DNA from: a virus
IMG/VR virus record: IMGVR_UViG_3300046820_001517
Span: 1 to 26,038 of that record
Direction: 5' to 3' (one strand)
DNA length: 26,038 nt
In this document: in pieces, positions 92-26,008 of the stretch
How the letters are laid out: every line of letters starts with the position of its first letter
Numbering within the stretch: the stretch's first letter is position 1
The notes under the pieces: generated by a model
Seen by the model: the letters and a program-made list of their open reading frames with translations, nothing else
Database searches by the model: none
Told to the model about the DNA's origin: nothing
Position numbers and translations under genes: made by a program

Positions 92-100
92 AATAAATAT
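92..100 (-). promoter_or_regulatory. ATATTTATT late-type promoter motif
   Basis: Reads ATATTTATT on the minus strand, 15 nt before the ATG at 76. It belongs to the recurrent class described in the findings. Confidence 0.55.
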
Positions 101-121
101 TATGGTTTCTGTCAAAAAGAC

Positions 122-2143
122 TTATTCGTCTAACATTTTATCGATATCTCTAATCATCGAATCAACGCTCTCATTTATCTTAACGTTTTTGTCGTAAATT
201 TTAACTTTTTCTTCAGATTTATTTTTAGCGTCTGGTTTAACTGACTCTACTAGAGCGTCAACCCACCTATTTTGATATTTCTGTGTTCTTTGATTAAGTT
301 TTTTATTTAATAACTGTTTTTCCTCTGTTAATAGCTTGTTAACTCTTTTTAATGATTCAGCAACAGTCTCAGCTTCCGCACCTGTTTCAGCCGCACCAGC
401 CTCTGCACCAGCTTCCGCTTCAGCACCGCCTTCTATTTCTGTATCACCGAAGTCTAGGTCTTCACCACCAACACCACCGCCACCGAATGAACCACCTAGG
501 CCACCGCCTCCACCGCCACCTTCAGCACCGCCTTCGCCACCTTCGGCACCAGCACCACCTCCGTTAAGAGCAGCTTTGAAATCACCATAGATTCTATCTA
601 CGGTATCGAACATTCCAGTATGTTTAATAACACCAGCAGTATTAGCCAATTCAGCAGCAGCTGCTTTTTCCATACGTTGTTCAAGTAAATCTTGTTTGAT
701 TTCATCATCAGACCAACCCATGATATCTCTATGTGCACGTGTCCATGACATTGTACCAAAACCATTCCCAATATCAGATACCGCATCTTTAAGAAGGGTA
801 ACTTTAAGTTGCATATGTTCAACCTTGAGCATTTCAGCTTGTGTCGATGGGTTGTTAAGTGTAATTGTAAAGTTATCTAAATCCTCTTCAAAACCTAAAA
901 TATATAAATGGATAATAGCCAATTTATTAAGCTCTTGAAGCATTGATTGTTGAATACGGTTAATAGTTCTAGAGAAACGAATATCTTGCAATGCTAAGTT
1001 CTTACCATCACCAGTCGCTTCCTCAAACCCTAAGAAAGGTTTTGGAACACGCAAAGCTGTAAATAAGTTTCTTTGCAAGTACTCGATATCTGCAATTTGG
1101 TCTAGGTTACTAGCACCAGGCAAAGTATCAATCGGATTCGGTGCATCCTCAGTTCTAACTGGGATAAAGAAATCTTGGTCATTTGCTAATTGGTTGTAAC
1201 GTAAATCGATTTGACCTGTTTGTGGGTCAGTAATTGGCATACGCTTAAATCTATCAGCAATCGTGTTTACGTATGCTTCTACATCCGCATCATCAATGTT
1301 ACCGACATAGATTTTATAAACACGTCTTTCTGGTGCTCTAGTAACACGATATACTAACATAGAGTCCTCAGATAAAATAAGTTGTTTCCAAATACGTCTA
1401 GCTTTCTCTAAGATTGAAGTACCATAAGGTAAACGTCTATCGTCACCTAATAAACGGAAGTGAGCAATTTGCCATGAATTGAATTCAACGTCACGACCTC
1501 TCCAGAAGAATTTAACTTTGTCAGACGTAGCTTGTTCTTCTCTAGGAATTTCTCTACCAGAAACCATATCAAATAAACCAGCCTCTCTACGTTCCATTTC
1601 ATAGTTAGGCATTTGTTTACCACCCAAAATACCGTGACTATCATCGATATTCAAGTAAACAAAGTTATCACCGTATTTACATGTGTTTCTAGTCCACATT
1701 GGTAATGATGTATGGATATCAAGTCTATTGAAGAATAAATCCTCAAGGATACCTTTTACACGCTTGCTATCAGAATAGATGTTAAGTACTCTACCATGGT
1801 CATTAACCGTAGTTGATTCTTCCATCATTACATCTAATGCTGCTGCAATTGTTGGGTAAAACTCCATCGCCTCGAAATCAGAATATGAACCGATACGTGT
1901 TGTTTCGTAATTGATAGATTGTTGAAATAAACCACTCTCTACCTTTTTCCATGTATTACCCAATAATTTGTTTTGTTGGGCTTGTAATTTAGCTCTTTCG
2001 TACTCACCTTTGTCTGTGGTTCTAAGCAACTCACCACTACCGATATTATATCGTTGTGTAGGTTGTTTTTGTGTAAGCTTAACAGTATCTGGGCCTAATA
2101 CTTGACCCAATCTTTGAAATATTGTTAAATTTTTATCTGCCAT
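122..2143 (-). CDS. Portal protein, T4 gp20 family, with Gly/Ala/Glu-rich C-terminal extension
   Basis: Probably the dodecameric portal vertex through which DNA is packaged and the neck attaches. The core (roughly residues 80-500) has features I associate with T4 gp20: the segment around EFYPTIAAALDVMMEEST (94-111), the wing/stem region with RVTRAPERRVYKIYVGN (266-282), and the crown segment with PKPFLGFEEATGDGKNLA (368-385). T4 gp20 is about 524 residues; this protein is 673. The excess is a low-complexity tract (about 527-595) of Gly, Ala and Glu, followed by a Lys-rich predicted coiled coil (about 596-650) and a C-terminal VKINES peptide that resembles a tag found in other proteins here. 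It starts at an ATG with an A-rich leader and no Shine-Dalgarno. It lies downstream of TerL and a small 81-aa gene, the expected packaging neighbourhood. The core assignment is firm; the function of the extension is unknown. Confidence 0.93.
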   Translation of the reverse strand: MADKNLTIFQRLGQVLGPDTVKLTQKQPTQRYNIGSGELLRTTDKGEYERAKLQAQQNKLLGNTWKKVESGLFQQSINYETTRIGSYSDFEAMEFYPTIAAALDVMMEESTTVNDHGRVLNIYSDSKRVKGILEDLFFNRLDIHTSLPMWTRNTCKYGDNFVYLNIDDSHGILGGKQMPNYEMERREAGLFDMVSGREIPREEQATSDKVKFFWRGRDVEFNSWQIAHFRLLGDDRRLPYGTSILEKARRIWKQLILSEDSMLVYRVTRAPERRVYKIYVGNIDDADVEAYVNTIADRFKRMPITDPQTGQIDLRYNQLANDQDFFIPVRTEDAPNPIDTLPGASNLDQIADIEYLQRNLFTALRVPKPFLGFEEATGDGKNLALQDIRFSRTINRIQQSMLQELNKLAIIHLYILGFEEDLDNFTITLNNPSTQAEMLKVEHMQLKVTLLKDAVSDIGNGFGTMSWTRAHRDIMGWSDDEIKQDLLEQRMEKAAAAELANTAGVIKHTGMFDTVDRIYGDFKAALNGGGAGAEGGEGGAEGGGGGGGLGGSFGGGGVGGEDLDFGDTEIEGGAEAEAGAEAGAAETGAEAETVAESLKRVNKLLTEEKQLLNKKLNQRTQKYQNRWVDALVESVKPDAKNKSEEKVKIYDKNVKINESVDSMIRDIDKMLDE

Positions 2144-2189
2144 AAGTTTTTTTATTATATTATAATGATTTTTTTAGGAAATTAAATAG

Positions 2190-2435
2190 TTACTGAACAT
2201 AATCACACTCAACGTATGCTATATGTTCTTGTTGACCAACATTCAATACCATGTTATAACAATAGTTTGAAATCCAATCTTGACCTTGCGAACCGCTAGT
2301 TGCGTTACAAAAATAAGGTTTAGCAGAACCAGCCGCCATTCCTTTTCTTTTTGTTAAATCATTCGGTAAAGGTGACCATTTATACAGGTCAAACCCACCG
2401 CTTTTTAATGTAAATACTTTTTGTCCTAATCCCAT
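2190..2435 (-). CDS. Small protein between terminase and portal, unknown
   Basis: An 81-aa protein whose ATG lies 5 nt after the TerL stop codon, so it is probably translated from the same transcript. It is rich in Gly, Ser and aromatic residues, has three Cys (in YFCNATSG, NYCYN and VECDY) and no membrane segment. T4 encodes sheath and tube proteins between terminase and portal; this is far too short to be either. A small virion or head-completion protein is an inference from position. I do not recognise the family. Confidence 0.8.
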   Translation of the reverse strand: MGLGQKVFTLKSGGFDLYKWSPLPNDLTKRKGMAAGSAKPYFCNATSGSQGQDWISNYCYNMVLNVGQQEHIAYVECDYVQ

Positions 2436-2440
2436 TTCTA

Positions 2441-4210
2441 TTATCTTTGTTTATTCATACCACCAAATAACCACATGTGCTCACCTCTAGGGTCTTGAGC
2501 GTTACGATATGCAGTATGTTGCGGGTTTATTTTTGTTTCTTTTTTACCAGTTTCTTGATTGACAACAGTTGTTGTTGCTTTATTGTTAGAACCAGCCAAC
2601 CAACTATTCAAAATAGCTTTGGTTTGTTTTTCAAGTCTTTCTAGATTTTTAAATGAATGCTCAATAACCCATAAACACATAGCCATGGCCATAAGTAAAT
2701 CATCATGGTAACCTTCCATATGGTCTGGTCTACCATTTTTGTAGATAAATGTTTTCATCTCTGAAATCATTCTACTAGAACGTATTTTAACACCGTTGGT
2801 TCTAATCTTATATTCTAAATTAGAAATCATTGGTAAACGAACAGATGTTGCGTGGAAACCTGGTATTTTGTTATTTTTATCGTAAGAACTTAATTCTCTT
2901 TGTCTAGCAGACAGAATCTTTCCATTCGCATTATCATAATGTAATAATTTGTAATCAAATTCTAGAAGTTTTAATACGGTTGAAACACCCATACCCCCAG
3001 TTACATCGACCACAGTATAAGCTTTGTATCTCTCACCATATTCCTCAACGATTTGTGCGAGTAAATCTGGTTGTATCTTACCTTGATACTCCATAACCTG
3101 TTCCATAGTCGTAAAATCAAGTATAACGATAGTAGAGCTATCCTCACCATCACCTCTGGATACATCGACACCCATTATATATTGGTGACCCTCTATTGGT
3201 TCAGCCCAAACCCATGTTTCTTCTTCAGAACCAAAAGTAACCTTTGGTTCCATAACATTAGTTTTATTTTGTTGTTCGATGTGTTCTTCATTGATTACGT
3301 TACCACCAGACCCAATAAACGATACATCAAGCTCTTGTGCAATCATCTTAGCGTCATTGTTCATACCTAAACACATTTCCTCATACCATGACGAGGTTGG
3401 TTTCCACCCATCGGCTAACCATCTGTTGTATGAATCAAAAGTAAATTCAATTTCTTTTTCAATTTCTTCACCTCTAACCCATCTTAAATCTTTGTTGTAA
3501 CGCAAATCCTCATACCACTTCATCTCAACAATATTGAAGTTGTTCTTTTTGTTCTTTGCTTGGTCGTAGGTTTTGTAGTATAAGGCATCCATACCACGTG
3601 GTGTAGAAATTAGGGTTGCTTTACCCCCAGTACCTAATGCGGTTAATGCAGCACCAAACACTTCGGCACCGTTATCGATATAGGCAGCCTCATCCATGAT
3701 AAGGAAAGTAGGTGTAAATCCACGAAGTGCATCTTTAGAAGTTGCCACCGCTTTTACACGACTACCATTAGGTAGTTTAATTTCTTTCTTAGAATCAGTA
3801 AGGAAAATTGATTTAGATTCATTTTTAGCATTACCATAATAGTCACTACCCCAAACCCATCTAGGTAATTGGTTTAAGAAGTCCTTAATCTTGCTCAAAA
3901 ACTCAAAAGCAAGTTCTTGCTTATTTGCAATAATTAGAATGTTTTCTGGGTTATCTGAATCAGCCCAACCAACTTTTATTGACATATATGCGGCAGTTGT
4001 TGTTGACACACCAGCCTGTCTAGGTTTTGTTACTAAATTAAATCTATGTTTTTCGTATGCGAGAATAATCTCCTTCTGTCTAGGAAATAACTTGAAAGGC
4101 ACGAAACCCTCCTGTGTCTTATCGAATGTTTCCAAATACGTTTCAATAGCGTAAGCTGGATTCATCAGACACCTTGTATATTCTTTAAATATTTCCTGTG
4201 TTGTTAGCAT
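2441..4210 (-). CDS. terL: Terminase large subunit (packaging ATPase/nuclease)
   Basis: The DNA-packaging motor, which translocates DNA into the prohead through the portal and cuts concatemers. The N-terminal ATPase has a deviant Walker A, KPRQAGVST (62-70), Walker B TFLIMDEA (168-175) with the catalytic Glu, and a coupling motif TLISTPRG (199-206). The C-terminal RNase-H/RuvC-like nuclease has acidic residues in YIMGVDVSRGD (Asp349), YTVVDVTGG (Asp402) and GYHDDLLMAMAM (Asp503/504). At 589 aa it is close to T4 gp17 (610 aa). The P-loop has Val where gp17 has the catalytic Lys, and a Lys at the start of the motif, as in lambda gpA. The ATG lies 13 nt from an ATATTTATA motif (4224-4232), and a terminator separates it from the upstream 442-aa gene. 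Confidence 0.96.
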   Translation of the reverse strand: MLTTQEIFKEYTRCLMNPAYAIETYLETFDKTQEGFVPFKLFPRQKEIILAYEKHRFNLVTKPRQAGVSTTTAAYMSIKVGWADSDNPENILIIANKQELAFEFLSKIKDFLNQLPRWVWGSDYYGNAKNESKSIFLTDSKKEIKLPNGSRVKAVATSKDALRGFTPTFLIMDEAAYIDNGAEVFGAALTALGTGGKATLISTPRGMDALYYKTYDQAKNKKNNFNIVEMKWYEDLRYNKDLRWVRGEEIEKEIEFTFDSYNRWLADGWKPTSSWYEEMCLGMNNDAKMIAQELDVSFIGSGGNVINEEHIEQQNKTNVMEPKVTFGSEEETWVWAEPIEGHQYIMGVDVSRGDGEDSSTIVILDFTTMEQVMEYQGKIQPDLLAQIVEEYGERYKAYTVVDVTGGMGVSTVLKLLEFDYKLLHYDNANGKILSARQRELSSYDKNNKIPGFHATSVRLPMISNLEYKIRTNGVKIRSSRMISEMKTFIYKNGRPDHMEGYHDDLLMAMAMCLWVIEHSFKNLERLEKQTKAILNSWLAGSNNKATTTVVNQETGKKETKINPQHTAYRNAQDPRGEHMWLFGGMNKQR

Positions 4211-4223: not shown

Positions 4224-4232
4224 TATAAATAT
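4224..4232 (-). promoter_or_regulatory. ATATTTATA late-type promoter motif (terL)
   Basis: Exact ATATTTATA on the minus strand, 13 nt before the terL ATG and just downstream of a terminator, so it is well placed to start a new terL-portal transcript. Confidence 0.65.
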
Positions 4233-7000: not shown

Positions 7001-9151
7001 CTATGCTTGTGTATTATCTCTGTTGTTAGCCTTTGGGTCTGGTGTAACTTCTGGTATAGGCAAAAATGGTTTATTTTTTCTGCTTGGTTGAACTGGTTGA
7101 GCTTCACCTGGTTTAACTACTGGAGTTTTTACTGGTGCTGGTGCTGTTTGTGGTTCTGCATTTGTCATATCTTCTTGGTTAAAAGTTTCATGTAATTTAT
7201 TTACAAAGTAATTTTTTCCAAAGATACTATTTTTTTCTGTATTAATCAAGTTTTCTTCAACTATTTTAGACACAGGTTTTTTAGACCACATTTTGCATGA
7301 CCAGTATTTAGGTGTTGTTCTATCTTTAGCTTGAGCACATTTATGTCTAGCTCTAAATGATTTTCTTCTTTCTGGGTTATCTCTTTTGATTTCCATGTTA
7401 GGGTCACCGAAGTTAACTTTAATTACGTTTCCTTTTTTGTTTTTAACGTAAACTTTAAATTTTTTAACGTCACCTTTCATCGGCTTACCAAGTTTTTTAC
7501 CATCGTATTTACCTTCGTAAAGTTCACCACCTTCTACATTTCCGTACTCATCTTCGTAACCACCTTCAGTATCGCCATCGTAAGCATTTAATGTATTTGC
7601 TAAGAAATGATAAACTTCCTCCATATCATCATTAGATGTAGCTATATGGTCAATAGCCCAACCATGACCGTTTGAAAGTATTTCATCAACTATAGTTTTA
7701 TCCATTTCTAATAATTTACCAGAAGCATGTGCTATGGTTTTAAGACTAGACCAAAACATATAATTGTTAGATTCTCCAACATGAGCTTCCATCATATTAT
7801 GGGTTTCTAAATTACCTTCTAAAAAATGATAAACTTCTTCAATATCATCTTTAGATGTAATAACATGTTCTAAAGCCCATTGGTGACCATTTTCTATCAA
7901 TTCATCAACTGCCGATTTATCCATATGTAACATTTCAACAGCGTCATCATGAATACCTTTAAGGTTTAACCAAAACATATAATTGTTCGATTCACCGTCA
8001 TAGTTTTCATAGATAGTTAAATCTGATTCATTAGCAGCTTTTTTTCCCCATGAATCACCTTTACCCTTTGTTTTACAAGCACTAGGTGTTGGCCTACATG
8101 ATGGATATTTACTTCTTTCTTCACCATCTTTTCTACCACAGGGTTTACATTTTCCGTCTCTACACGTATTACAATCTACCCAACCTTGACTTCCTTCACC
8201 ACCTCTTCTAGAAAACCAACCATGTAAACCACTTTCTTTTTCTTTTGAAAAGTCAGTTTTTTTAGCCGCTTCTTCGATAGATTCATTTTGTTTTTTACGA
8301 CCTTGGCAATGTGCTTTTTGACTAAAGCCTTTTGGGTTATTACAATCTATGCTTTTTTTATATTTTTCTGACCATTCTTCATCAATTTGTTCATCGGTCA
8401 TGTTTTTAAAATCACCCAATTCTTTTAAATCTTCTTCCTTGAGTCCTTTCCAAATTTTACCTTGTCTGCATTTAACAACAGCACCAGAAGCATAAGCCGA
8501 TGGCCATACATCATATTTGCTTTTTGCAATTCTAGTACATCTATCCGCTTCTTCATCCAAGATGTCATTTGAACCTTCTTGGAACATATTGTTTTTCTTA
8601 GGGTTGGCTAAAAATAGGTCTTCATTTTCGTAGATATGGTATTCTTCCAAACCTTCTTCATCGCCCCCAGAACTAGGTTCAGTATCATCACCAAACCCAT
8701 TGTCACCCCCATCGTTGCCATCGTTTCCACTATCGGCATTATCGTCATTATTACCCAAATCAGAATCTTCTGAATCATCACTTCCAGCTGTATTTACTTT
8801 TTTAATTATATCTTTTTTATCCTCTTCATCCATTTCAGATGTGTGAGTTGCAGACAATAGAGAATTTATGGCAAATTTCTCTAATTCGAAATCTGGGCCA
8901 CCTTGTTCTTCTGTATATTTTCTTAGGGATTGTCCTAACTTTCCAGTTAATTGCTCAATGAATTTTTTTGGGTCTGTATCTTCGTCAGCCTCAACACCAG
9001 CATCAAATGGCTCGTCATCAAATGGTTTATTATCAGCTGCTGATTCTTCACCCGCTGGTTCCTCACCACCAAAATCGCCAAAACCAGCGTCTGCGGCTGG
9101 TTCTGTAGTAGGTTCAGCTGGAGCTGGAGCCGCTGGTGCGGCTAGCTTCAA
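7001..9151 (-). CDS. Large mosaic protein of small Cys-rich phage modules (likely C-terminal part of a frameshift fusion)
   Basis: A 716-residue frame from a TTG, with no ATG and no upstream ribosome site. The same frame is open back to 9202, into an A10 run at the end of the 289-aa gene (see findings). In order: Ala/Pro/Glu-rich acidic start (1-60); helical module with KFIEQLTGKLGQSLRKY (63-120); Asp/Asn/Gly linker (122-165); SKYDVWPSAYASGAVVKCR (211-229); DCNNPKGFSQKAHCQGRKK (269-287); GLHGWFSRRGG module with several Cys and SCRPTPSAC (299-360); two copies of a ~65-aa repeat (387-451, 460-523); a basic Cys-containing module with FGDPNMEIKRDNPERR (561-622); Pro-rich tail (665-705). Such modules recur in large phages and giant viruses, but their function is unknown. 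I infer a virion-interior or prohead-core protein from position. Cys/His content suggests metal binding. Confidence 0.85.
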   Translation of the reverse strand: MKLAAPAAPAPAEPTTEPAADAGFGDFGGEEPAGEESAADNKPFDDEPFDAGVEADEDTDPKKFIEQLTGKLGQSLRKYTEEQGGPDFELEKFAINSLLSATHTSEMDEEDKKDIIKKVNTAGSDDSEDSDLGNNDDNADSGNDGNDGGDNGFGDDTEPSSGGDEEGLEEYHIYENEDLFLANPKKNNMFQEGSNDILDEEADRCTRIAKSKYDVWPSAYASGAVVKCRQGKIWKGLKEEDLKELGDFKNMTDEQIDEEWSEKYKKSIDCNNPKGFSQKAHCQGRKKQNESIEEAAKKTDFSKEKESGLHGWFSRRGGEGSQGWVDCNTCRDGKCKPCGRKDGEERSKYPSCRPTPSACKTKGKGDSWGKKAANESDLTIYENYDGESNNYMFWLNLKGIHDDAVEMLHMDKSAVDELIENGHQWALEHVITSKDDIEEVYHFLEGNLETHNMMEAHVGESNNYMFWSSLKTIAHASGKLLEMDKTIVDEILSNGHGWAIDHIATSNDDMEEVYHFLANTLNAYDGDTEGGYEDEYGNVEGGELYEGKYDGKKLGKPMKGDVKKFKVYVKNKKGNVIKVNFGDPNMEIKRDNPERRKSFRARHKCAQAKDRTTPKYWSCKMWSKKPVSKIVEENLINTEKNSIFGKNYFVNKLHETFNQEDMTNAEPQTAPAPVKTPVVKPGEAQPVQPSRKNKPFLPIPEVTPDPKANNRDNTQA
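7583..7993 (-). repeat. Tandem duplication of a ~65-codon module inside the mosaic protein
   Basis: Two adjacent copies (protein residues about 387-451 and 460-523) share ESNNYMFW, a central LxMDK..VDE..xNGHxWA and TSxDDxEEVYHFL. At the DNA level both copies contain accaaaacatataattgtt, at about 7749 and 7970, so the duplication is fairly recent or constrained. Confidence 0.85.
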
Positions 9152-9180
9152 CTTATATTTTGTTTCTTCGTTTAAATTAG

Positions 9181-10050
9181 TTACTGGACTTTTTTTTTTA
9201 CACTAAGACCTTCGATAATAGCGTCCAAGTTTTCCATAGCTCTAGCAATAGACAAATGATGTTCATCAACTTTTTTACTAGCTCTTAAGTCAGCCAAGTC
9301 ATCAGCTTCAATATCACCATCGTGGTCAACATCCAATTTACCTTGGTTACCAACTAATTCGTCTTCTTCTTCTAACATTCTATCGATAGCTTCTTCAACT
9401 TCAGTCATAGCAACATCTTCATTCATGTAACCACATTCTTCCATGTAACCTTCTTCAGTCATTGACTCTTCAATACCTTTTTCTTTTTTAACACCCATAA
9501 CACAAGCTTCGTATTTTTCTTTGTCTTCTCTACCAACACTAGCAGTACAGATAGCCCATGGGTTATTTTTGTTTTCGTCTTTTCCTTCAAACATTGGAGT
9601 GTTGTGTTCCATGTTTCCTTCGTTAGAAAATCCGTTTCCACCGTATTGTGAAAAACCAGCAACACCAGATTCAGTGATAAGGTTATCATTTTTAAATACG
9701 TTGATATCACCACCTTTACCATAAGCCTCAGCCAATGACTTGAAGTTCAAGTTTAAGTGTTTGATTGCTTTAGCGTAAGAAGGATAAGCTTCTGATTTTT
9801 TGTTTTGTAAACCACCAATGTATTTAAAATCTTCAGATAATAAATTAGATGTTTTCTCAGATACTTTGATAAAGTATTCGTGATTTTCTCTTACGATTGC
9901 GTAAGATTTACCATCTGGTCCAATCTTAGATAATTCAACAACTGATGTTGATTTATTTTCATTAATAGGTTTGATACCCATTAATTCTCTCATACGTTCA
10001 TTAATCTCGTTTCCTTTAAGACCAATTGGGTTAATTTTGTTATTTTTCAT
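9181..10050 (-). CDS. 289-aa EF-hand protein with NPWAICTAS module
   Basis: The start chosen is ATG 10050 (MKNNKINPIGLKG); the frame extends further upstream but crosses the promoter motif at 10083-10091. Visible parts are: an N-terminal helical peptide with NERMRELMGIKPINENKS (17-34); an alpha/beta stretch (35-115); the module NPWAICTASVGREDKEKYEAC (163-183), which I associate with phage proteins of unknown role; an acidic Glu-rich helix (190-232); and DVDHDGDIEADD (240-251), which fits a canonical 12-residue EF-hand Ca2+ loop (D1, D3, D5, G6, I8, D12). The C-terminus ends in VKKKVQ, encoded by an A10 run where a -1 shift would enter the downstream mosaic frame. A virion or scaffold protein is likely from position; the biochemical role is unknown. 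Confidence 0.88.
   Translation of the reverse strand: MKNNKINPIGLKGNEINERMRELMGIKPINENKSTSVVELSKIGPDGKSYAIVRENHEYFIKVSEKTSNLLSEDFKYIGGLQNKKSEAYPSYAKAIKHLNLNFKSLAEAYGKGGDINVFKNDNLITESGVAGFSQYGGNGFSNEGNMEHNTPMFEGKDENKNNPWAICTASVGREDKEKYEACVMGVKKEKGIEESMTEEGYMEECGYMNEDVAMTEVEEAIDRMLEEEDELVGNQGKLDVDHDGDIEADDLADLRASKKVDEHHLSIARAMENLDAIIEGLSVKKKVQ
9190..9199 (-). other. A10 slippery run: candidate -1 frameshift site joining the 289-aa and 716-aa frames
   Basis: On the minus strand the zero frame reads GTA AAA AAA AAA GTC CAG TAA, giving an A-AAA-AAA heptamer 9 nt before the stop. Slipping back one base gives AAA AGT CCA GTA ACT and runs without a stop into the 716-aa frame. This is either programmed -1 frameshifting, transcriptional slippage, or a miscalled homopolymer. 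Confidence 0.5.
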
Positions 10051-10082
10051 ATCGTATTTGTTTGTTTGTTTCTTTATTTTAA

Positions 10083-10091
10083 TATAAATAT
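10083..10091 (-). promoter_or_regulatory. ATATTTATA late-type promoter motif (289-aa gene)
   Basis: Exact ATATTTATA on the minus strand, 32 nt before the ATG at 10050 and downstream of the 81-aa gene stop. Confidence 0.55.
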
Positions 10092-10111
10092 CCGTGTTTA
10101 TTACAAAGTTG

Positions 10112-10357
10112 TTAATTATATGTTGGACTTCCTTCGAACACATCTTGGTTTTCACCCATTAACCAACAACCAGTACCACCACTGACACTTCTAACCCAAA
10201 TTGATAAACTTGAAGATGAAGCAACGTTAACTACTACTCCGTTTATTGCAATTGTGCAACCAGCGGTCCCACCATAAATTTCTGTATAAGTATGTGCTGA
10301 AAGATTTGGACTCTGAGCTGGTACTATAATGCTATGTATGTCATTAATTTTTGCCAT
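10112..10357 (-). CDS. 81-aa small beta-rich protein at head of structural operon
   Basis: Starts at an ATG 16 nt from an exact ATATTTATA motif. Composition is Ser/Gly/Val/Ile-rich with alternating hydrophobic residues (CTIAINGVVVNVASSSSLSIWV), suggesting a beta-sandwich or decoration-like fold. It contains two Cys and has no signal peptide or membrane helix. It is the first gene after the terminator at 10392-10417 and so opens the virion block. A minor capsid or decoration role is possible but only inferred; no family recognised. Confidence 0.8.
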   Translation of the reverse strand: MAKINDIHSIIVPAQSPNLSAHTYTEIYGGTAGCTIAINGVVVNVASSSSLSIWVRSVSGGTGCWLMGENQDVFEGSPTYN

Positions 10358-10373: not shown

Positions 10374-10382
10374 TATAAATAT
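10374..10382 (-). promoter_or_regulatory. ATATTTATA late-type promoter motif (81-aa gene)
   Basis: Exact ATATTTATA on the minus strand, 16 nt before the ATG at 10357 and 9 nt after the terminator stem-loop and T tract of the preceding unit. Confidence 0.65.
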
Positions 10383-13046: not shown

Positions 13047-13077
13047 CAAAGATACGAATATTTATCTTTAGAATCAA
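13047..13077 (-). promoter_or_regulatory. Bacteroidetes sigma-A-type promoter (79-aa/KTSC unit)
   Basis: On the minus strand, -33 TTG (13077-13075), a 20-nt spacer, and -7 TATCTTTG (13054-13047). This matches the Bacteroidetes TTTG / TAnnTTTG consensus. Confidence 0.8.
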
Positions 13078-13078: not shown

Positions 13079-13109
13079 TTGATTTTATAAAAAACTTTTA
13101 GTACCTTTG
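13079..13109 (+). promoter_or_regulatory. Bacteroidetes sigma-A-type promoter (clpC)
   Basis: On the plus strand, -33 TTG (13079-13081), a 20-nt spacer, and -7 TACCTTTG (13102-13109), 26 nt before the clpC ATG. It is back to back with the minus-strand promoter; the two -33 boxes are separated by one base in CAAGTTG. Confidence 0.85.
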
Positions 13110-15682: not shown

Positions 15683-15691
15683 ATATTTATA
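15683..15691 (+). promoter_or_regulatory. ATATTTATA late-type promoter motif (GNAT-peptidase gene)
   Basis: Exact ATATTTATA on the plus strand, only 3 nt before the ATG at 15695. If it acts as a -10 box, the transcript would be leaderless. Confidence 0.55.
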
Positions 15692-16740: not shown

Positions 16741-17148
16741 TCCAACATACTCGTGACTAAAACATATTCGTTTATTGTCAAAGTAATGTTCCTTATACAT
16801 ATTGGCTAACGAAACATCTTTTCTTAATTTTTTGTTCTTGCTAGTTGGTTTCCAAAAATCAGAATGTTCTCTGTAGTAACCCATTCTTGGGTGGGCTGTT
16901 CTAGAGAAATATCTATGACCTTCGTCTAAATGAATCTGAGCAATCGCATCAGAAAACCTAACACCTAAACCCATACCTTGATAATCTGGAAGGATTACAG
17001 TTCGATGACCTCTCCATGCGTTTTTTAACGTACCGCTAGGCATAGTAATAGTAGCACCAAAAGCAACTACATTCCCTTCCCATACACCGACATAACATCT
17101 AGAAGCTTTGTTTATATTTCCATCTAAATAGTGATGGTCTTTAAACAT
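16729..17148 (-). CDS. GNAT-like domain, probably the C-terminal half of a split ABC-ATPase/GNAT protein
   Basis: 139 aa from the first ATG, but the same frame is open upstream through DVYRTNYDNWG and ARPQIKL to a T9 run (17211-17203) inside the preceding ABC ATPase. The GNAT features are CYVGVWEGNVVAFGATI (18-34) as central strands and HRTVILPDYQGMGLGVRFSDAIAQIHL (48-74), with QGMGLG as the CoA loop. HHYLDG and NAWRGHRT are motifs I recall from intact proteins that join a small ABC ATPase to this GNAT. I therefore read it as the 3' portion of a gene that begins at 17813 and is broken or programmed to shift by -1. As an independent gene it would lack a promoter and a leader. Confidence 0.75.
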   Translation of the reverse strand: MFKDHHYLDGNINKASRCYVGVWEGNVVAFGATITMPSGTLKNAWRGHRTVILPDYQGMGLGVRFSDAIAQIHLDEGHRYFSRTAHPRMGYYREHSDFWKPTSKNKKLRKDVSLANMYKEHYFDNKRICFSHEYVGLQA

Positions 17149-17813
17149 TCCCCAGTTATCATAGTTTGTGCGATATACGTCAAGTTTGATTTGTGGGCGG
17201 GCAAAAAAAAACCGTCCATCAGCTCACCTGTGTCCGTATTCAAAACCCAATCTGGTTCTAACCATTCTAAAATATCGTGATGACATGTAGATAACACTAC
17301 GTTTTCTAAACCATTGTTTTTTATGTATCTAGACAATGAAATACTGGCTGCTTTTGCAACAGTCCTATCCACAACACTAGTGAATTCATCGATAACGCAA
17401 TTTGATTTTATTTTACGAGCCAAGTCAGCTCTGAATTTTTCACCATTAGAAAGCACGTGATATGGTTTATACCATGACGGCACAGAGTTTAACCCAACAC
17501 TACCCAATTTATTTATTGCGTCATCTGGATTTTCAAAATGTGATACTATGGATTTATTTGAATCCCATTGTGGTGTTTCTTCGATACCAAAATTCTTCAA
17601 TAGCGTTGACTTACCAGAACCACTGGAACCAACGATAATACCTAGTTTAAAATTCTTAGGGAGTTTACTTGGAAATTTCCAAGGGTGGAACTTAGATGTT
17701 CCGTCAAAAGCACAATCAAATGCTTTTTCGCTGGCTGTGATGAAATCATCTCGTTCAACGCTAGATACCAAGGGCTCGGCATCTTTAATTAATTTTTCTA
17801 TAACTTTACTCAT
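17124..17813 (-). CDS. ABC-type ATPase domain protein (N-terminal half of the split gene)
   Basis: The start chosen is ATG 17813 (MSKVIEKLIKDAE), 17 nt from an ATATTTATT motif; a TTG at 17831 lies in the motif. The protein has Walker A VGSSGSGKST (61-70), signature VLSNGEKFRADLAR (120-133), Walker B NCVIDEFTSVVDR (138-150) and switch His in LSTCHHDILEW (174-184). There is no membrane domain, so it is a soluble ABC ATPase rather than a transporter. After residue 201 the frame becomes unconvincing (FFLPAHKSNLTYIAQ onward). In the -1 frame from the T9 run the sequence reads ARPQIKLDVYRTNYDNWG and continues into the GNAT domain. The fusion would be about 360 aa. Confidence 0.85.
   Translation of the reverse strand: MSKVIEKLIKDAEPLVSSVERDDFITASEKAFDCAFDGTSKFHPWKFPSKLPKNFKLGIIVGSSGSGKSTLLKNFGIEETPQWDSNKSIVSHFENPDDAINKLGSVGLNSVPSWYKPYHVLSNGEKFRADLARKIKSNCVIDEFTSVVDRTVAKAASISLSRYIKNNGLENVVLSTCHHDILEWLEPDWVLNTDTGELMDGFFLPAHKSNLTYIAQTMITGECLKTITI
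17203..17211 (-). other. T9 run: candidate -1 frameshift site joining the ABC ATPase and GNAT frames
   Basis: In the coding sense the zero frame reads GAC GGT TTT TTT TTG CCC, giving a T-TTT-TTT heptamer. A -1 slip yields TTT GCC CGC CCA CAA and continues into the GNAT frame. Ten T residues instead of nine would make one continuous gene, so a homopolymer miscall is an alternative. Confidence 0.55.
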
Positions 17814-17829: not shown

Positions 17830-17838
17830 AATAAATAT
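17830..17838 (-). promoter_or_regulatory. ATATTTATT late-type promoter motif (ABC ATPase)
   Basis: ATATTTATT on the minus strand, 17 nt before the ATG at 17813 and downstream of the preceding terminator. Confidence 0.55.
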
Positions 17839-17926: not shown

Positions 17927-18142
17927 TTATTTACCTTCAGTTAATCTGCTAACTTTCGCCTCTAACGCAGCAAGTTTGCTTTCCAAAACAGCAGTTTTGT
18001 TGTTTTGTTTTTTAGCTTGTTCGTTAATCCACTCTTGTTTTTTTACAGCAACAGCTTCGTTTACGATGTTATCGATTAAATCAACCAAATGAGATTCTTT
18101 GATTTTTACTGTTTTTGTTGCAACTGTTTTTACGTTTGACAT
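17927..18142 (-). CDS. 71-aa coiled-coil protein with IKES tag
   Basis: The N-terminus is basic (MSNVKTVATKTVK) and is followed by VKIKESHLVDLIDNIVNEAV (about 12-31), which resembles peptides in at least six other proteins of the window. The last 25 residues form clear heptads (ESKLAALEAKVSRLTEG), a short coiled coil that probably oligomerises. It has its own late-type motif 34 nt upstream and a terminator downstream, so it is monocistronic or ends the unit containing the 51-aa gene. It is reminiscent of abundant small virion-associated proteins, but the function is unknown. Confidence 0.82.
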   Translation of the reverse strand: MSNVKTVATKTVKIKESHLVDLIDNIVNEAVAVKKQEWINEQAKKQNNKTAVLESKLAALEAKVSRLTEGK

Positions 18143-18176: not shown

Positions 18177-18185
18177 TATAAATAT
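18177..18185 (-). promoter_or_regulatory. ATATTTATA late-type promoter motif (71-aa coiled-coil gene)
   Basis: Exact ATATTTATA on the minus strand, 34 nt before the ATG at 18142. Confidence 0.5.
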
Positions 18186-18212: not shown

Positions 18213-18368
18213 TTATCGAATAAACAGTTCTACCTCAAAAATTTCTAACAAATTATTAAGACTCATTTTTTTAATAGCGGCAAAATTTTCTGCGGCCTCT
18301 ATTTTATTTGTGGCCGAAGTCGTGTTAATTACCTCACCAGATTTGGTCATCAATGCAAATTTCTTCAT
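18213..18368 (-). CDS. 51-aa small phage protein
   Basis: An ATG at 18368, 15 nt from an exact ATATTTATA motif, opens a 51-codon frame. It begins MKKFALMTKSGEVINTTSA, continues with IEAAENFAAIKKMSLNNLLE and ends IFEVELFIR. The pattern of a two-strand start, then an A..FA..KxLs..LL.IF helix pair, is familiar from small uncharacterised phage proteins. The promoter-like motif, start and stop are all clean, which supports a real gene despite its size. Function unknown. Confidence 0.75.
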   Translation of the reverse strand: MKKFALMTKSGEVINTTSATNKIEAAENFAAIKKMSLNNLLEIFEVELFIR

Positions 18369-18383: not shown

Positions 18384-18392
18384 TATAAATAT
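18384..18392 (-). promoter_or_regulatory. ATATTTATA late-type promoter motif (51-aa gene)
   Basis: Exact ATATTTATA on the minus strand, 15 nt before the ATG at 18368. Confidence 0.6.
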
Positions 18393-18935: not shown

Positions 18936-18964
18936 AACTTTAATGTTTTTGGTTTTATTTATAA

Positions 18965-20430: not shown

Positions 20431-20461
20431 CAAAGATACAAAAAATAAATGGATAAGGCAA
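20431..20461 (-). promoter_or_regulatory. Bacteroidetes sigma-A-type promoter (LRR gene)
   Basis: On the minus strand, -33 TTG (20461-20459), a 20-nt spacer, and -7 TATCTTTG (20438-20431), 17 nt before the ATG at 20413. Confidence 0.8.
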
Positions 20462-20464: not shown

Positions 20465-20806
20465 TTAAATAAAGAATCTTTTAAAATAATCTTCTTCTAC
20501 GTATTCTTCTATTCTTCTTTTCAAAAACCACACCAATCCAGTTACGGTATCTACCTCCCTTTCAATGATGTCCAACATTACTTTATTTGGGTCTTCACCA
20601 TCAGTCAATCTATATTTTATCTCTTTAAAGCAGTCTAGGTTTCCTTGTTCTATTAATTCTTCAATTACTAAGTTATAAGTTTCCCACCTGTTTTCCTGTT
20701 CCTCATCTAGCGAGCCCAAGATATAATTAATGTGATTATAATAAGCTTTGTCTAATGTAGTTCTCTTACCATGACTTGCCTTGAATAAAAAATTATTAGC
20801 GTTCAT
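20465..20806 (-). CDS. 113-aa protein, paralogue of the 106-aa protein at 20934-21254
   Basis: A helical, charged protein. The core RWETYNLVIEEL, then KEIKYRLTDGEDPNKV and IIERE, aligns with EWLTYNQVILEL, then KELQYKLTENVDPNEV and VIEPL, of the neighbouring 106-aa protein; the two are diverged duplicates. No catalytic motif or membrane helix is seen. It has its own ATATTTATT motif 30 nt upstream of the ATG. Function unknown. Confidence 0.82.
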   Translation of the reverse strand: MNANNFLFKASHGKRTTLDKAYYNHINYILGSLDEEQENRWETYNLVIEELIEQGNLDCFKEIKYRLTDGEDPNKVMLDIIEREVDTVTGLVWFLKRRIEEYVEEDYFKRFFI

Positions 20807-20836: not shown

Positions 20837-20845
20837 AATAAATAT
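20837..20845 (-). promoter_or_regulatory. ATATTTATT late-type promoter motif (113-aa paralogue)
   Basis: ATATTTATT on the minus strand, 30 nt before the ATG at 20806, in the otherwise empty 127-nt gap between the two paralogues. Confidence 0.5.
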
Positions 20846-21611: not shown

Positions 21612-21620
21612 TATAAATAT
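21612..21620 (-). promoter_or_regulatory. ATATTTATA late-type promoter motif (ITESQ-tagged gene)
   Basis: Exact ATATTTATA on the minus strand, 3 nt before the ATG at 21608 and immediately after the thioredoxin terminator. Confidence 0.55.
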
Positions 21621-21678: not shown

Positions 21679-22005
21679 TTATGATAATTCATCGATTACC
21701 GCTTGATATTCGTCTTTACTCATTAGCCCAACCTTTCTGGTCCCACTAACTTCAGCACCATCTTTGAAGAAAAGAACACATGGTATCCCTCTAACACCAA
21801 ACTGGGCTGCGATTGAACCGTTCTCGTCAACATTTAACTTACCGATTGTAACATTATTATCCTTGTTGTCATCACTCAGCGTTTCAATCACTGGTCCTAA
21901 CATTTTGCATGGGCCACACCATGGGGCCCAAAAGTCAACTAGTACTGGGTTTTTTGCGTTTAGTACTAATTCTTCGAAATTTTCTTTTGTAATCTCTAAT
22001 GCCAT
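21679..22005 (-). CDS. trxA: Thioredoxin
   Basis: A 108-aa single-domain thioredoxin. The redox motif FWAPWCGPCK (25-34) and the cis-Pro loop VRGIPCVLFFKDG are intact. The residue after the cis-Pro is Cys where E. coli has Thr, giving a third Cys next to the active site. Phage thioredoxins can serve as electron donors to ribonucleotide reductase or as DNA-polymerase processivity factors (as host thioredoxin does in T7). No RNR is in this window, so its partner is unknown. It is a single-gene unit with an exact late-type motif 28 nt upstream and a strong terminator. Confidence 0.97.
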   Translation of the reverse strand: MALEITKENFEELVLNAKNPVLVDFWAPWCGPCKMLGPVIETLSDDNKDNNVTIGKLNVDENGSIAAQFGVRGIPCVLFFKDGAEVSGTRKVGLMSKDEYQAVIDELS

Positions 22006-22033: not shown

Positions 22034-22042
22034 TATAAATAT
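22034..22042 (-). promoter_or_regulatory. ATATTTATA late-type promoter motif (thioredoxin)
   Basis: Exact ATATTTATA on the minus strand, 28 nt before the thioredoxin ATG. Read on the plus strand it is TATAAATAT, upstream of the divergent 83-aa gene. Confidence 0.6.
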
Positions 22043-22668: not shown

Positions 22669-22677
22669 ATATTTATG
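22669..22677 (+). promoter_or_regulatory. ATATTTATG late-type promoter motif (81-aa plus-strand gene)
   Basis: ATATTTATG on the plus strand, 13 nt before the ATG at 22691. Confidence 0.45.
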
Positions 22678-22690: not shown

Positions 22691-22936
22691 ATGTTTGACG
22701 AAGAATATAAAAATATGATTGTTACGTTTCTCCAAAGAAATTACCCTATAGCCAGAGTGAAACACGAAAATCGTTTTAGACGTGCCATCGTTTTAGATGG
22801 ACACGAGCCTTATTTTCTCGCAAACACATCTTCCATGCTTCCAATCAAAGTTAACCTCGCAAACACGCTTAAAACAATTTTTGATTGCGATAGAGCCTTG
22901 GCTGAAGAACTTATTAGCAAAGCACTTAGCATCTAA
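22691..22936 (+). CDS. 81-aa protein, unknown
   Basis: A small alpha/beta protein: MFDEEYKNMIVTFLQRNYPI, a basic stretch with RVKHENRFRRAIVLDG (about 22-37), then a polar loop and an acidic helical C-terminus. The basic patch could contact nucleic acid, but nothing confirms this. Its stop abuts the 3' end of the convergent lipoprotein gene (22937). Confidence 0.72.
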   Translation: MFDEEYKNMIVTFLQRNYPIARVKHENRFRRAIVLDGHEPYFLANTSSMLPIKVNLANTLKTIFDCDRALAEELISKALSI

Positions 22937-23536
22937 TTACCATTCTTCTATTTTCTCTAACGTTAATTCAGACCAATAATGGCAGTTGTACCCGTTGATA
23001 CTCCCTTCCATCTCTTGTATCTGCATCCTAACAATCTTATTTGCATAATCAACCGTTTGACCACTAAATGGTCTACTTGAACCACCCATCAATTGCTGAG
23101 TCATCCCATATACTGGGTCTTCTACAATTGTCTTATTTTGACCAATAAAATATACAGCATAGTGTTTTGTCGAATCTGAGTTCAATTCAAACTTACCATA
23201 ACCAGGATAATTCACTGGTTGGTAAAAAGAGTAAGTAGTTTGATTTTTAACGATTGTTTCGATGTCGAACTGGCTACCACCCCATCTAAGACTAGATGTG
23301 TCTTTGTTCGGACCAAAATGGTCAAATACAAAACGTTCACCAGTTTCTTTGTTATCCACATACATGACACCACTAATAACTCTAAACTTACCCCATAAAC
23401 TAATAGCTGGACTATTATCTATCGGTGCTAAAACTATTCCATAGCTATCACTTGGATACGGATATTCTTTTTCACAAGATGTTAGCAACATAAAAAATGC
23501 CGCTACGACTAAAAAATGTAATTTAAAACTTTTCAT
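22937..23536 (-). CDS. Phage-encoded lipoprotein
   Basis: The N-terminus MKSFKLHFLVVAAFFMLLTS-C is a lipoprotein signal peptide with lipobox LLTSC and lipidation at Cys21. The mature protein is about 179 aa and rich in Tyr, Ser and Gly, with beta-strand-like alternation. The residues after the Cys are EKEYPYPSDS. Bacteroidetes use an acidic signal after the Cys for surface export, and this one is only partly acidic, so inner- or outer-membrane location is open. It has a full host-type promoter, so early synthesis and a role in altering the host envelope (for example superinfection exclusion) is a plausible inference. No homologue recognised. Confidence 0.85.
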   Translation of the reverse strand: MKSFKLHFLVVAAFFMLLTSCEKEYPYPSDSYGIVLAPIDNSPAISLWGKFRVISGVMYVDNKETGERFVFDHFGPNKDTSSLRWGGSQFDIETIVKNQTTYSFYQPVNYPGYGKFELNSDSTKHYAVYFIGQNKTIVEDPVYGMTQQLMGGSSRPFSGQTVDYANKIVRMQIQEMEGSINGYNCHYWSELTLEKIEEW

Positions 23537-23554
23537 ATTTTTCTATTTAGAATA

Positions 23555-23586
23555 CAAAGGTAAGAATAATTTCTCATTCTACCAAA
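23555..23586 (-). promoter_or_regulatory. Bacteroidetes sigma-A-type promoter (lipoprotein)
   Basis: On the minus strand, -33 TTTG (23586-23583), a 20-nt spacer, and -7 TACCTTTG (23562-23555), 18 nt before the ATG at 23536. The best match to the full consensus in the window. Confidence 0.85.
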
Positions 23587-23604
23587 TATTTTTAGAAAAA
23601 AATT

Positions 23605-24063: not shown

Positions 24064-24080
24064 AATATCTGTGTTTTTTA

Positions 24081-24089
24081 AATAAATAT
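24081..24089 (-). promoter_or_regulatory. ATATTTATT late-type promoter motif (152-aa gene)
   Basis: ATATTTATT on the minus strand, 17 nt before the ATG at 24063. Divergent from the plus-strand motif at 24115-24123. Confidence 0.55.
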
Positions 24090-24114
24090 CATTGATACAC
24101 AATAAAATTACGCT

Positions 24115-24123
24115 ATATTTATA
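24115..24123 (+). promoter_or_regulatory. ATATTTATA late-type promoter motif (HNH gene)
   Basis: Exact ATATTTATA on the plus strand, 12 nt before the ATG at 24136. Confidence 0.6.
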
Positions 24124-24135
24124 TTAAACATTTTT

Positions 24136-24768
24136 ATGTGTGCAAAAACAAAAACCCCAAAGTTATCAATAGAACTAATCCCGTCAACCTGTCACTTCTC
24201 TAATGTACGAACAACAGTAAAACCATCAGAATGGGATAAGATACGTTTTATTTCCTACGAAGCAGCCAATAACAGATGCGAAATCTGTGGCGATACTGGA
24301 AAGAACCAAGGATACAAACATAATGTAGAATGCCATGAGATATGGGAATATGATGATGAAAACCACATTCAAAAGCTTGTGGGGCTTATTTCATTGTGTC
24401 CAATATGTCACCAAGTTAAACACATCGGAAGAGCCATCGCCATCGGAAAACAATACCAATGTTTCGCACAATTGGCCAAGGTAAACAAATGGACCCAAGC
24501 ACAAGTACAAGAACATTTGGTAGCTTCATTTGCCGAACAAAAAGAACGTTCAAAGTTCCAATGGGAATTAGATTTGTCTTTGTTAACCCAAGAACCTTAT
24601 TTGATAAAATTAAAGAAAACAACCACTAGGATTTTTGAGGTTAAAAAATACAAAAAGAAACCCAAGAAAAAGTCCGCAACTGGTGTAAAGAAAAAACACC
24701 CTAAAGCAAAGATAGCAGCGGCTTTGAAACCAAAAACATCAACAAATAAACGTCCACCAAAAAAATAA
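24136..24768 (+). CDS. HNH-type zinc-binding protein with Lys-rich tail
   Basis: A 210-aa protein. The central part has NRCEICGDTG (about 46-55), NVECHEIWEYDD (63-74) and LISLCPICHQVKH (83-95). Two CxxC pairs for zinc plus CHE and H-xxx-H type His residues fit an HNH/treble-clef endonuclease. The N-terminal 35 residues are polar. The C-terminal 55 residues are extremely basic (KKYKKKPKKK and repeats of Lys/Pro/Ala), resembling a DNA-binding tail. Free-standing HNH proteins are common in T4-like phages as homing or packaging-associated nucleases. No intron or interrupted gene is seen next to it. The start is ATG with a short leader. Confidence 0.87.
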   Translation: MCAKTKTPKLSIELIPSTCHFSNVRTTVKPSEWDKIRFISYEAANNRCEICGDTGKNQGYKHNVECHEIWEYDDENHIQKLVGLISLCPICHQVKHIGRAIAIGKQYQCFAQLAKVNKWTQAQVQEHLVASFAEQKERSKFQWELDLSLLTQEPYLIKLKKTTTRIFEVKKYKKKPKKKSATGVKKKHPKAKIAAALKPKTSTNKRPPKK

Positions 24769-24800
24769 TGTTTACTTAATGTTATTAATACTTTTTATCT

Positions 24801-24809
24801 ATATTTATT
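24801..24809 (+). promoter_or_regulatory. ATATTTATT late-type promoter motif (small GNAT)
   Basis: ATATTTATT on the plus strand, 15 nt before the GTG at 24825. Confidence 0.5.
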
Positions 24810-24824
24810 TACAAAAAAAGATAA

Positions 24825-25145: not shown

Positions 25146-25150
25146 AACGG

Positions 25151-25546
25151 TTAATTCTCGTATGTACATTTAGTTAAACACAATCTAAAGTATTTCATGT
25201 CTTTTTCATCAGAATAATAATAAAAGTCCAAGGTATTTGATTCCTCATCACATTTGTCAATTTTTATTCTAATTATCTCTCCCCTCCAATCATACGCACC
25301 ATACAAAAAACTATCAAGTCTGATAAACTGTTGTTTAGAAATAACATCGTAAACAAGCATAAATTTTTCGGTGATAATAATTATCTCTTTATTTTGTTCA
25401 TCTATCTGTACCTCACCAGACATGTTAATAATATTCCACCCATCTGGTGTTCTTTTATCAAAAGTTTGGAATTCATATACTTTTGCTTGTGACCATGAGC
25501 TAACAACGGTTAGCATTAAAACCAAGAATATTAATCTTTTTTTCAT
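25151..25546 (-). CDS. Secreted/periplasmic protein, unknown
   Basis: A 131-aa protein with a clear Sec signal peptide, MKKRLIFLVLMLTVVSSWSQ, with cleavage predicted around SQA-K; no lipobox Cys. The mature protein is beta-rich and acidic with Cys residues at KCDEES, LCLTKCTYE. The ATG is 4 nt after the stop of the zinc-ribbon gene, so it shares that host-type promoter. An exported phage protein suggests envelope modification, but nothing more can be said. Confidence 0.82.
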   Translation of the reverse strand: MKKRLIFLVLMLTVVSSWSQAKVYEFQTFDKRTPDGWNIINMSGEVQIDEQNKEIIIITEKFMLVYDVISKQQFIRLDSFLYGAYDWRGEIIRIKIDKCDEESNTLDFYYYSDEKDMKYFRLCLTKCTYEN

Positions 25547-25550
25547 CTTA

Positions 25551-25952
25551 TTATAAGTTTTTTTTATTTTTAGCTAGTATCTCAGCCAACTGTGCTTTCA
25601 TTTCATCGTTTTGTGTTAACATAACTTTAAATTTATCACTTCTCTCACCGCTTTCACTATGCCATGCAACTTGACAATTACCGCATTGGTAATACCCGTC
25701 CATCCCAGTAGCGTTGTAGTCTCCATCAGATAATTCAATAAAAATCAAATTGCTCATTCGCTTTTGATTCTCTTCCGACCATCCATAGATTCTTTTGGCT
25801 CTTTTGATAGCTTCCTCTCTAGTAGTTTCAATCCCATTGGCTTTGTCGTTCTCAATAATTACATCCAAAACATTACCTCTATCCCAATTATGACCACAAT
25901 CTGGACAGCTAACACAGTGATTTGTCTCATCTATCTTATAAATTTCTTTCAT
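25551..25952 (-). CDS. Zinc-ribbon protein
   Basis: A 133-aa protein with two CxxC knuckles: VSCPDCGHNWD (about 14-24) and YQCGNCQVAWH (about 88-98). Together they could bind one zinc as a zinc ribbon, with a helical insertion between them containing TTREEAIKRAKRIYGWSEE. The C-terminal helix is Lys-rich. Such small zinc ribbons in phages can act as transcription or RNA-polymerase-binding factors, but nothing specific shows this. First gene of a two-gene unit under a host-type promoter. Confidence 0.82.
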   Translation of the reverse strand: MKEIYKIDETNHCVSCPDCGHNWDRGNVLDVIIENDKANGIETTREEAIKRAKRIYGWSEENQKRMSNLIFIELSDGDYNATGMDGYYQCGNCQVAWHSESGERSDKFKVMLTQNDEMKAQLAEILAKNKKNL

Positions 25953-25968
25953 ATTTATTATTTTTAAG

Positions 25969-25999
25969 CAAATATACTAATTTTTATCCACAAGTCAAA
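25969..25999 (-). promoter_or_regulatory. Bacteroidetes sigma-A-type promoter (zinc-ribbon/secreted unit)
   Basis: On the minus strand, -33 TTTG (25999-25996), a 19-nt spacer, and -7 TATATTTG (25976-25969), 16 nt before the ATG at 25952. Confidence 0.75.
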
Positions 26000-26008
26000 A
26001 TATTTATA
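26000..26008 (+). promoter_or_regulatory. ATATTTATA late-type promoter motif at right edge
   Basis: Exact ATATTTATA on the plus strand, 17 nt before an ATG at 26026. Confidence 0.5.

Follow-up and report, generated by a model that had tools for sequence, protein, structure and literature searches.

The late promoter of phage T4, TATAAATA, used with the phage sigma factor gp55, is a single 8-bp AT box in the −10 place without a host −35/−33 element; an AT-rich segment follows the box, genes lie on either strand, and a passage on Aeh1 puts the box at −13 to −6 (passages of PMC2988020). The cyanophage late promoter, NATAAATA, is likewise a late box upstream of T4-type late genes and carries the same TATAAATA core (passages of PMC2984593). 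The Bacteroidetes housekeeping promoter has the −33/−7 form TTTG / TAnnTTTG, with the −7 element at −12 to −5, 4–5 nucleotides (nt) before the start, and AT-rich motifs at −18 and −28 are reported as well (sections of PMC6847099). Here we analysed the IMG/VR virus record IMGVR_UViG_3300046820_001517, a stretch of 26,038 bases (34% GC) that is the whole record and is called the window below; a portal protein and a T4-type terminase large subunit (TerL) were identified in it (PHROGs, tblastn). A short box, ATATTTATA, recurs upstream of its genes. We put at roughly 84% the probability that this box is the −10-type element of late promoters in T4-like, Bacteroidetes-type phages, used by the host RNA polymerase, most likely with a phage-encoded sigma.

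The exact box occurs 11 times in the window, compared with a mean of 1.04 and a maximum of 4 in 100 shuffles. When ATATTTATN or NTATTTATA were counted as well, we found 22 exact or near places. Fourteen of these have the orientation of the gene and lie at most 60 nt upstream of one of 34 hand-picked, curated starts, and two further boxes precede genes cut by the window ends, so that 16 of the 22 fit. An earlier note on this DNA had described about 17 boxes, nearly all before genes and 3–34 nt from the start. The repeated box is real, the six example coordinates given there are exact and the 14 in-sense sites span the same distances, but six places do not fit: ATATTTATC at 13058 (+), the boxes at 18955 (+) and 25951 (+), and those at 15747, 19648 and 20027, which lie inside coding sequence. 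The same 34 upstream regions hold six antisense boxes; four of them are in sense for a divergent neighbour or for the cut gene at 26026, so that two remain. With any one mismatch allowed the excess is weaker (42 places versus 26.7 shuffled, with 1 of 100 shuffles as high), so the signal resides in the box itself and not in general AT-rich sequence. A strict pattern with a fixed 14-nt spacing had no match in the window because the spacing varies.

Outside the window, genes were called mechanically as ATG-only open reading frames (ORFs) of at least 60 amino acids (aa). In the window and 80 TerL relatives taken together (992 kb), the 80 nt before genes contain the exact box 149 times in sense and 4 times in antisense, a count in which related sequences recur. 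Analysis of single genomes avoided this redundancy. Expressed as upstream 50-nt regions with a box in sense, in antisense and as the shuffled mean, the values were 53/16/8.3 of 367 in relative G001, 32/6/5.2 of 370 in G002, 25/5/2.6 of 142 in G004, 29/6/3.9 of 213 in the isolated Flavobacterium phage immuto and 16/1/3.1 of 232 in Mel-JY01. The AT-rich, crAss-like Cellulophaga phage phi14:2, our negative control, showed no enrichment (1 sense, 5 antisense, 1.0 shuffled of 106). An unbiased 8-mer screen recovered the known words of T4 (TATAAATA) and cyanophage P-HM2 (ATAAATAA), which validates it, and returned ATATTTAT as the top word in G001, G004 and Mel-JY01 and TATTTATA in immuto; in G002, words of the host-type promoters described below came first and ATATTTAT stood at z 17.9. 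Random placement and strand across genomes, the computable part of the refuting condition in the earlier note, was thus examined and did not refute its reading. All 78 relatives with sufficient DNA before TerL carry [A/C]TATTTAT[A/T/G] no more than 70 nt upstream of it, in 53 distinct contexts (80 loci, less L056 and L079, which had too little upstream DNA). The huge phage LR745206 (pieces L348-L357, 200 kb sampled) showed little or no box enrichment (11 versus 9.5 shuffled); another strong upstream word stands there, AATATATA/TAATATAT, in 57 and 52 of 293 regions, and is perhaps another phage-specific promoter.

The box does not stand alone. With the first A of ATATTTATA counted as position 0, position 12 is an A in 94 of the 100 deduplicated sites from G001, G002 and G004, and a T-tract (at least three T in the four bases from −17 to −14) is present in 68 of the 100, including 48 of the 75 without an upstream hairpin. 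Upstream of TerL the T-tract is present in 78 of 78 relatives and the A in 68. Boxes elsewhere in the same genomes have the A in 75 of 165 cases, versus 106 of 114 at upstream boxes. Sites in immuto are without the T-tract, and their conserved A is at position 13 (26 of 29). The earlier note had described only the box; in the window's clade, it goes together with a T-tract near −28 and, at the predicted +1, with an A.

The distance from box to ATG points to the same base. Across G001, G002, G004, immuto and Mel-JY01, the main peak is at 11–18 nt. A gap of 3 nt occurs at 14 sites, all in the first three genomes (12 of 100 after deduplication), 4 nt at four sites (three in immuto), and 5 nt and 8 nt at one site each; no site in the five genomes has 2, 6, 7 or 9 nt. 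The 3-nt gap places the A of the ATG on the conserved A12 of the window's clade, and the 4-nt gap places it on A13 of immuto. The conserved A is likely the +1, and genes whose ATG coincides with it would probably give leaderless messages. The idea in the earlier note that some messages are leaderless thus holds, as a prediction from sequence, for this subset; its start 5–10 nt downstream of the box gives way to a predicted start with 3–4 nt in between. Leaders of F. johnsoniae exceed 10 nt in 87% of cases and average 33 nt (passages of PMC6847099), so leaderlessness would be a feature of the phage.

We propose that the host RNA polymerase carries a strongly diverged 242-aa phage sigma, region-2-like at residues ~13–123 and with a predicted fold like that of T4 gp55. 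This holoenzyme would melt DNA at [A/C]TATTTATA and start at the conserved A, 3–4 nt further on. The full promoter of the window's clade would consist of the T-tract (~−29 to −26), 13 nt, ATATTTATA (~−12 to −4), 3 nt and A(+1)AA. Late leaders would be very short, mostly 8–15 nt, or missing where ATG and +1 coincide. Other genes, presumably early and middle, would use host-type TTG-N19/20-TAnnTTTG promoters.

Such a promoter resembles the T4 late promoter in its single 8-bp AT box, its predicted −10 position, the missing −35/−33 element, the AT-rich segment behind the box and its use on either strand, where the late class is taken from the gene products and the position from the conserved A. 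The phages also share a T4-like terminase and portal and, in relatives, a divergent sigma with apparent region-2 similarity (T4 side from passages of PMC2988020). Unlike T4, the consensus is TATTTATA and not TATAAATA, the window's clade has the T-tract near −28, a leaderless subset is predicted, and 3–4 nt instead of 5 nt would separate box and +1; the cyanophage promoter also differs in this core. The earlier note had seen a T4 late promoter in reversed sense. This is half right: TATTTATA is the complement of TATAAATA, and as expected from this the pattern is mostly antisense to genes in T4 (21 versus 6 sense), whereas it is sense in the window's clade. Read in one and the same direction, the two words also agree at 6 of 8 positions, so that on this near-palindrome the box can equally be a same-sense AA-to-TT variant. 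No reversed mechanism is needed, and the data do not distinguish the directions. Among the open-access papers listed in our searches, we found no description of this box or of any Bacteroidetes-phage late promoter, which is weak as an absence.

Host-type promoters occur in the same genomes as the late box. We defined these as TTG followed by TAnnTTTG (TAnnTTTAG in immuto), with 23 or 22 nt from TTG to TA. The two types avoid each other: both were found on one gene in 2 of 367 cases versus 10.0 expected in G001, 2 of 370 versus 9.3 in G002, 2 of 142 versus 4.9 in G004 and 0 of 213 versus 3.3 in immuto. In immuto, 24 of 25 host-type sites but 0 of 29 late sites have a TTG 23 nt before TA, and among the late sites of G001, G002 and G004 it is present at 2 of 53, 4 of 32 and 2 of 25; the late box has neither this TTG nor the TTTG of the Bacteroidetes housekeeping promoter. 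In immuto the late box shares the register of the −7 element, from which it is shifted by one base in the window's clade; the T-tract is about where the AT-rich −28 motif is reported (passages of PMC6847099). These observations agree with the −10-like element lacking a host −33 TTG that the earlier note had proposed. We inferred a Bacteroidetes-like host from the TAnnTTTG/TTG promoters and the near absence of Shine-Dalgarno sites (3 of 367, 1 of 370 and 2 of 142 genes in G001, G002 and G004 and 4 of 213 in immuto, versus 78 of 244 in T4). Mel-JY01 has Shine-Dalgarno-like sites at 21 of 232 genes. Since a cyanobacterial host is given in its record, the box may go with the phage sigma and not with the host. 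Overlapping top words in G002 (L097-L108) suggest an extended run, TACCTTTGTACTCTAATC, in many host-type promoters, and an extended TATATTTAGGTATCAATAATTAAAA is common to many of those in immuto (L212-L215).

The genes behind the two promoter types differ as well. In immuto, the 29 late-box genes include TerL, portal, tail sheath, tail tube, baseplate hub, tape measure, virion structural and tail spike genes. By comparison, 20 of 24 host-type genes lie within 60–77 kb; these host-type genes are mostly small and hypothetical, with one annotated endolysin. For G001 we compared the largest genes of each class, leaving out one 647-aa host-type gene that spans a fetch boundary. The ten largest late-box genes include TerL, a tail fibre and one of unknown function, and the ten host-type genes include DNA polymerase, an RNase II/R-like nuclease, NAMPT and a Clp ATPase. 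These products support a late-type promoter, as the earlier note had it. A family-A DNA polymerase matched in immuto only, among 11 records.

A candidate for the protein that reads the box is found in the relatives. The diverged late sigma postulated in the earlier note was not seen in the window itself, but a Sigma70_r2 search matched 13 of 16 large relatives, and 12 of the 16 encode a divergent sigma-region-2 protein in an open frame of ~242–251 aa (318 in G016). Nine of these align with a mean column identity of 88%. Homologues are present in immuto (KNV73_gp118, 35% over 125 aa, annotated 'hypothetical protein') and Mel-JY01 (28% over 168 aa). Searches for further relatives confirmed 253 of 341 candidate stretches for the window's clade and at least 600 for the immuto type (600 of 600 among the matches listed), and the Mel-JY01 sigma gave 8 stretches in viral_contigs, none confirmed. 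The family phrog_234 matched in 8 of the 16 records at single-genome E values of 5e-5 to 0.03, seven times on the 242-aa protein and once (G005) on another ORF; against three single proteins with the whole library, E was a weak 0.0075–0.048. An hhalign comparison with a gp55 alignment gave E 5.5e-4 over region 2 (106 columns). T4 gp55 as a phmmer query had no match in G001, G002 and G004, and a PDB sequence search with the sigma profile gave one weak match (E 1.1), to an uncharacterized protein. A structure model built from only 9 close sequences had low confidence (predicted local distance difference test, pLDDT, 54.6). With the later model, VIA-align placed T4 gp55 (7d7c_F) in the first row (Z 9.8, root-mean-square deviation 2.9, 105 aligned), and Foldseek returned one unnamed viral model at 4.1e-5. 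The modelled protein looks like a region-2 sigma; orthology to gp55 is plausible but not proven. Unlike gp55, the 242-aa protein has an extra C-terminal region. This has no Sigma70_r4 match in Pfam, and its comparison with phage sigma70 region 4 by hhalign (E 0.02–0.55) did not support a region 4; helices are predicted there and by eye could form a helix-turn-helix. Neither a late box nor a host-type site lies in the 90 nt upstream of the sigma gene in 5 of 5 relatives checked, so the gene seems to be transcribed within an operon.

We consider it unlikely that the box is instead read by a host alternative sigma or by additional sigma70-type phage factors. G001, G002 and G003 do carry one or two such factors: three that we examined (L124 in G001, L125 in G003, L126 in G002) have regions 1.2, 2 and 4, G001 and G003 each have a second Sigma70_r2 match, and the additional factor is possibly a middle-gene sigma. 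The T-tract near −28 could suit a two-element sigma, and G003 has the box, yet no divergent sigma was found there. However, strong sigma70 matches are present in only 3 of the 16 large relatives, an absence that is weak since many records may be fragments; immuto and Mel-JY01 have no sigma70-type match, yet have both box and divergent sigma; and the box is not enriched in phi14:2. Jumbo phages such as AR9 and phiKZ reportedly have their own multisubunit RNA polymerase, large genomes, and early and late promoter classes. A motif search of G001, G002 and G004 found the beta-prime DFDGD signature in one G001 ORF only, without a Pfam match, and we rejected a phage-encoded polymerase.

That the box is a translation signal in the messenger RNA, an AU-rich ribosome-binding element in place of Shine-Dalgarno, is very unlikely, even though it lies just before starts in phages nearly devoid of Shine-Dalgarno sites. 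The median gap to the upstream gene is 57, 75, 61 and 38 nt for late-box-only genes in G001, G002, G004 and immuto, versus 4, 3, 5 and 3 nt where a gene has neither element. The box tends to mark the first gene of an operon and is missing from most genes inside operons. The box also shares its slot with host-type promoters, which it avoids. The T-tract and the conserved A keep a fixed distance to the box, whereas the ATG lies anywhere from 0 to 49 nt away, and in Mel-JY01, which has some Shine-Dalgarno-like sites, 10 of 17 boxes are 27–40 nt off. We rejected the translation-signal explanation on the evidence of operon gaps, promoter avoidance and fixed flanks. Chance, an AT-rich string landing in the AT-rich intergenic DNA of genomes with 31–35% GC, might seem suggested by the modest window excess with one mismatch, but is refuted by the strand asymmetry and the shuffles, and the phi14:2 control (29.6% GC) and the TerL conservation also stand against it.

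Several observations weigh against a late promoter read by the divergent sigma. On the side of the box, the antisense count of G001 exceeds its shuffled mean. LR756508 encodes a sigma of this family (E 5e-53), yet the 140 kb sampled of its 484 kb are not clearly enriched in the box (2 sense, 0.5 shuffled). The T-tract still accompanies 57 of 165 boxes elsewhere in the genomes (75 of 114 upstream), which may include promoters of uncalled small genes, and five sites with a 0–1 nt gap, which may be mis-called starts, do not fit the predicted +1. On the side of the genes, the late-box set of immuto also holds GroES and many hypothetical genes, and its genes for the major capsid protein, prohead protease and head completion lack their own box. 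G001 has the box before a DnaB helicase gene and a host-type site before a baseplate wedge gene, and for six of its ten largest box genes PHROGs gave no match at 1e-5. On the side of the sigma, the divergent protein was not found in G003 (122 kb, with two sigma70-type matches instead) or in G012, G013 and G014 (48–67 kb), all possibly fragments. The hhalign match to the gp55 alignment has a probability of only 30, and ordinary phage sigma70s score similarly (E 1.2e-3). The AlphaFold model from 36 sequences is of moderate quality (mean pLDDT 68), VIA-align rows for sigma-E and other sigma factors tie with gp55 within 1 Z, and Foldseek found nothing in the PDB below E 0.001. Lastly, late promoters of T4 are activated by its replication clamp gp45 and the coactivator gp33. 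The T4 clamp family (phrog_223), found in T4, matched 0 of 10 relatives, in a search that could miss a diverged clamp; bacterial clamp domain 3 matched 0 of 11 records, with the same limit for diverged clamps. We entertain only tentatively, at somewhat less than even odds, that in this large lineage a gp55-type sigma came to recognise TATTTATA, that late transcription no longer depends on a T4-type clamp and that part of the late regulon is truly leaderless in a host without Shine-Dalgarno sites, with the +1 on the A of the ATG at a fixed distance from the box.

Coordinates of the individual sites are collected in the table. Genes of 112–113 aa with the same 3-nt spacing as the window gene starting at 21608 are present in G001, G002 and G004. 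The gene at 21679-22005 appears, by eye, to be thioredoxin-like. Frames 7001-9151 and 9181-10155 (window 7001-10155) begin with non-ATG starts, and the ATG at 10050 better fits the late box at 10083; starts in this part are best treated with caution. The ClpB-like protein is a double AAA ATPase with a host-type promoter, and a similar G001 gene is likewise of the host-type class. In each of the four genomes inspected, the next gene after the late sigma gene encodes ~116–131 aa, with the immuto and Mel-JY01 copies 41% identical; it is a coactivator candidate or just part of a late operon.

Table. Predicted late boxes and contrasting host-type sites in the window, and the gene after the sigma gene in four relatives.
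Record	Feature	Position	Strand	Remark
Window	late box ATATTTATT	92..100	-	15 nt before ATG at 76; frame continues past the window edge and up to the end of L001
Window	late box ATATTTATA	4224..4232	-	13 nt before TerL (2441-4210; TerL by PHROGs)
Window	late box ATATTTATA	10083..10091	-	32 nt before ATG at 10050
Window	late box ATATTTATA	10374..10382	-	16 nt before 81-aa gene 10112-10357
Window	late box ATATTTATA	15683..15691	+	3 nt before ATG at 15695; GNAT-domain protein; predicted leaderless
Window	late box ATATTTATT	17830..17838	-	16 nt before ATG at 17813
Window	late box ATATTTATA	18177..18185	-	34 nt before gene 17927-18142
Window	late box ATATTTATA	18384..18392	-	15 nt before 51-aa ORF 18213-18368
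Window	late box ATATTTATT	20837..20845	-	30 nt before gene 20465-20806
Window	late box ATATTTATA	21612..21620	-	3 nt before ATG at 21608; predicted leaderless
Window	late box ATATTTATA	22034..22042	-	28 nt before gene 21679-22005
Window	late box ATATTTATG	22669..22677	+	13 nt before gene 22691-22936
Window	late box ATATTTATT	24081..24089	-	17 nt before ATG at 24063
Window	late box ATATTTATA	24115..24123	+	12 nt before gene 24136-24768; divergent partner of box 24081..24089
Window	late box ATATTTATT	24801..24809	+	15 nt before GTG at 24825
Window	late box ATATTTATA	26000..26008	+	17 nt before ATG at 26026; gene cut by window end
Window	host-type TTG-N20-TACCTTTG	13079..13109	+	before ClpB-like gene 13136-15649 (Pfam)
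Window	host-type TTG-N20-TATCTTTG	13047..13077	-	before start at 13031
Window	host-type TTG-N20-TACCTTTG	23555..23585	-	before gene 22937-23536
Window	host-type TTG-N20-TATCTTTG	20431..20461	-	before start at 20413 (leucine-rich repeat protein)
Window	host-type TTG-N19-TATATTTG	25969..25998	-	before gene 25551-25952
G001	gene after sigma	65631-66014	-	late box before gene
G002	gene after sigma	16943-17332		late box before gene
immuto	gene after sigma	78906-79256		late box before gene
Mel-JY01	gene after sigma	159540-159935		no late box before gene

In conclusion, this box very probably switches on the late genes, those that build the virion, in a large and mostly uncultured group of T4-like phages. 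The late genes of this widespread group thereby gain a promoter that can be read, and sequence by itself could suffice to call late operons. The proposal can be tested directly in the isolated phage immuto, and it illustrates how the late system of a T4-type phage may become fitted to a Bacteroidetes-like polymerase and to ribosomes that work without Shine-Dalgarno sites.

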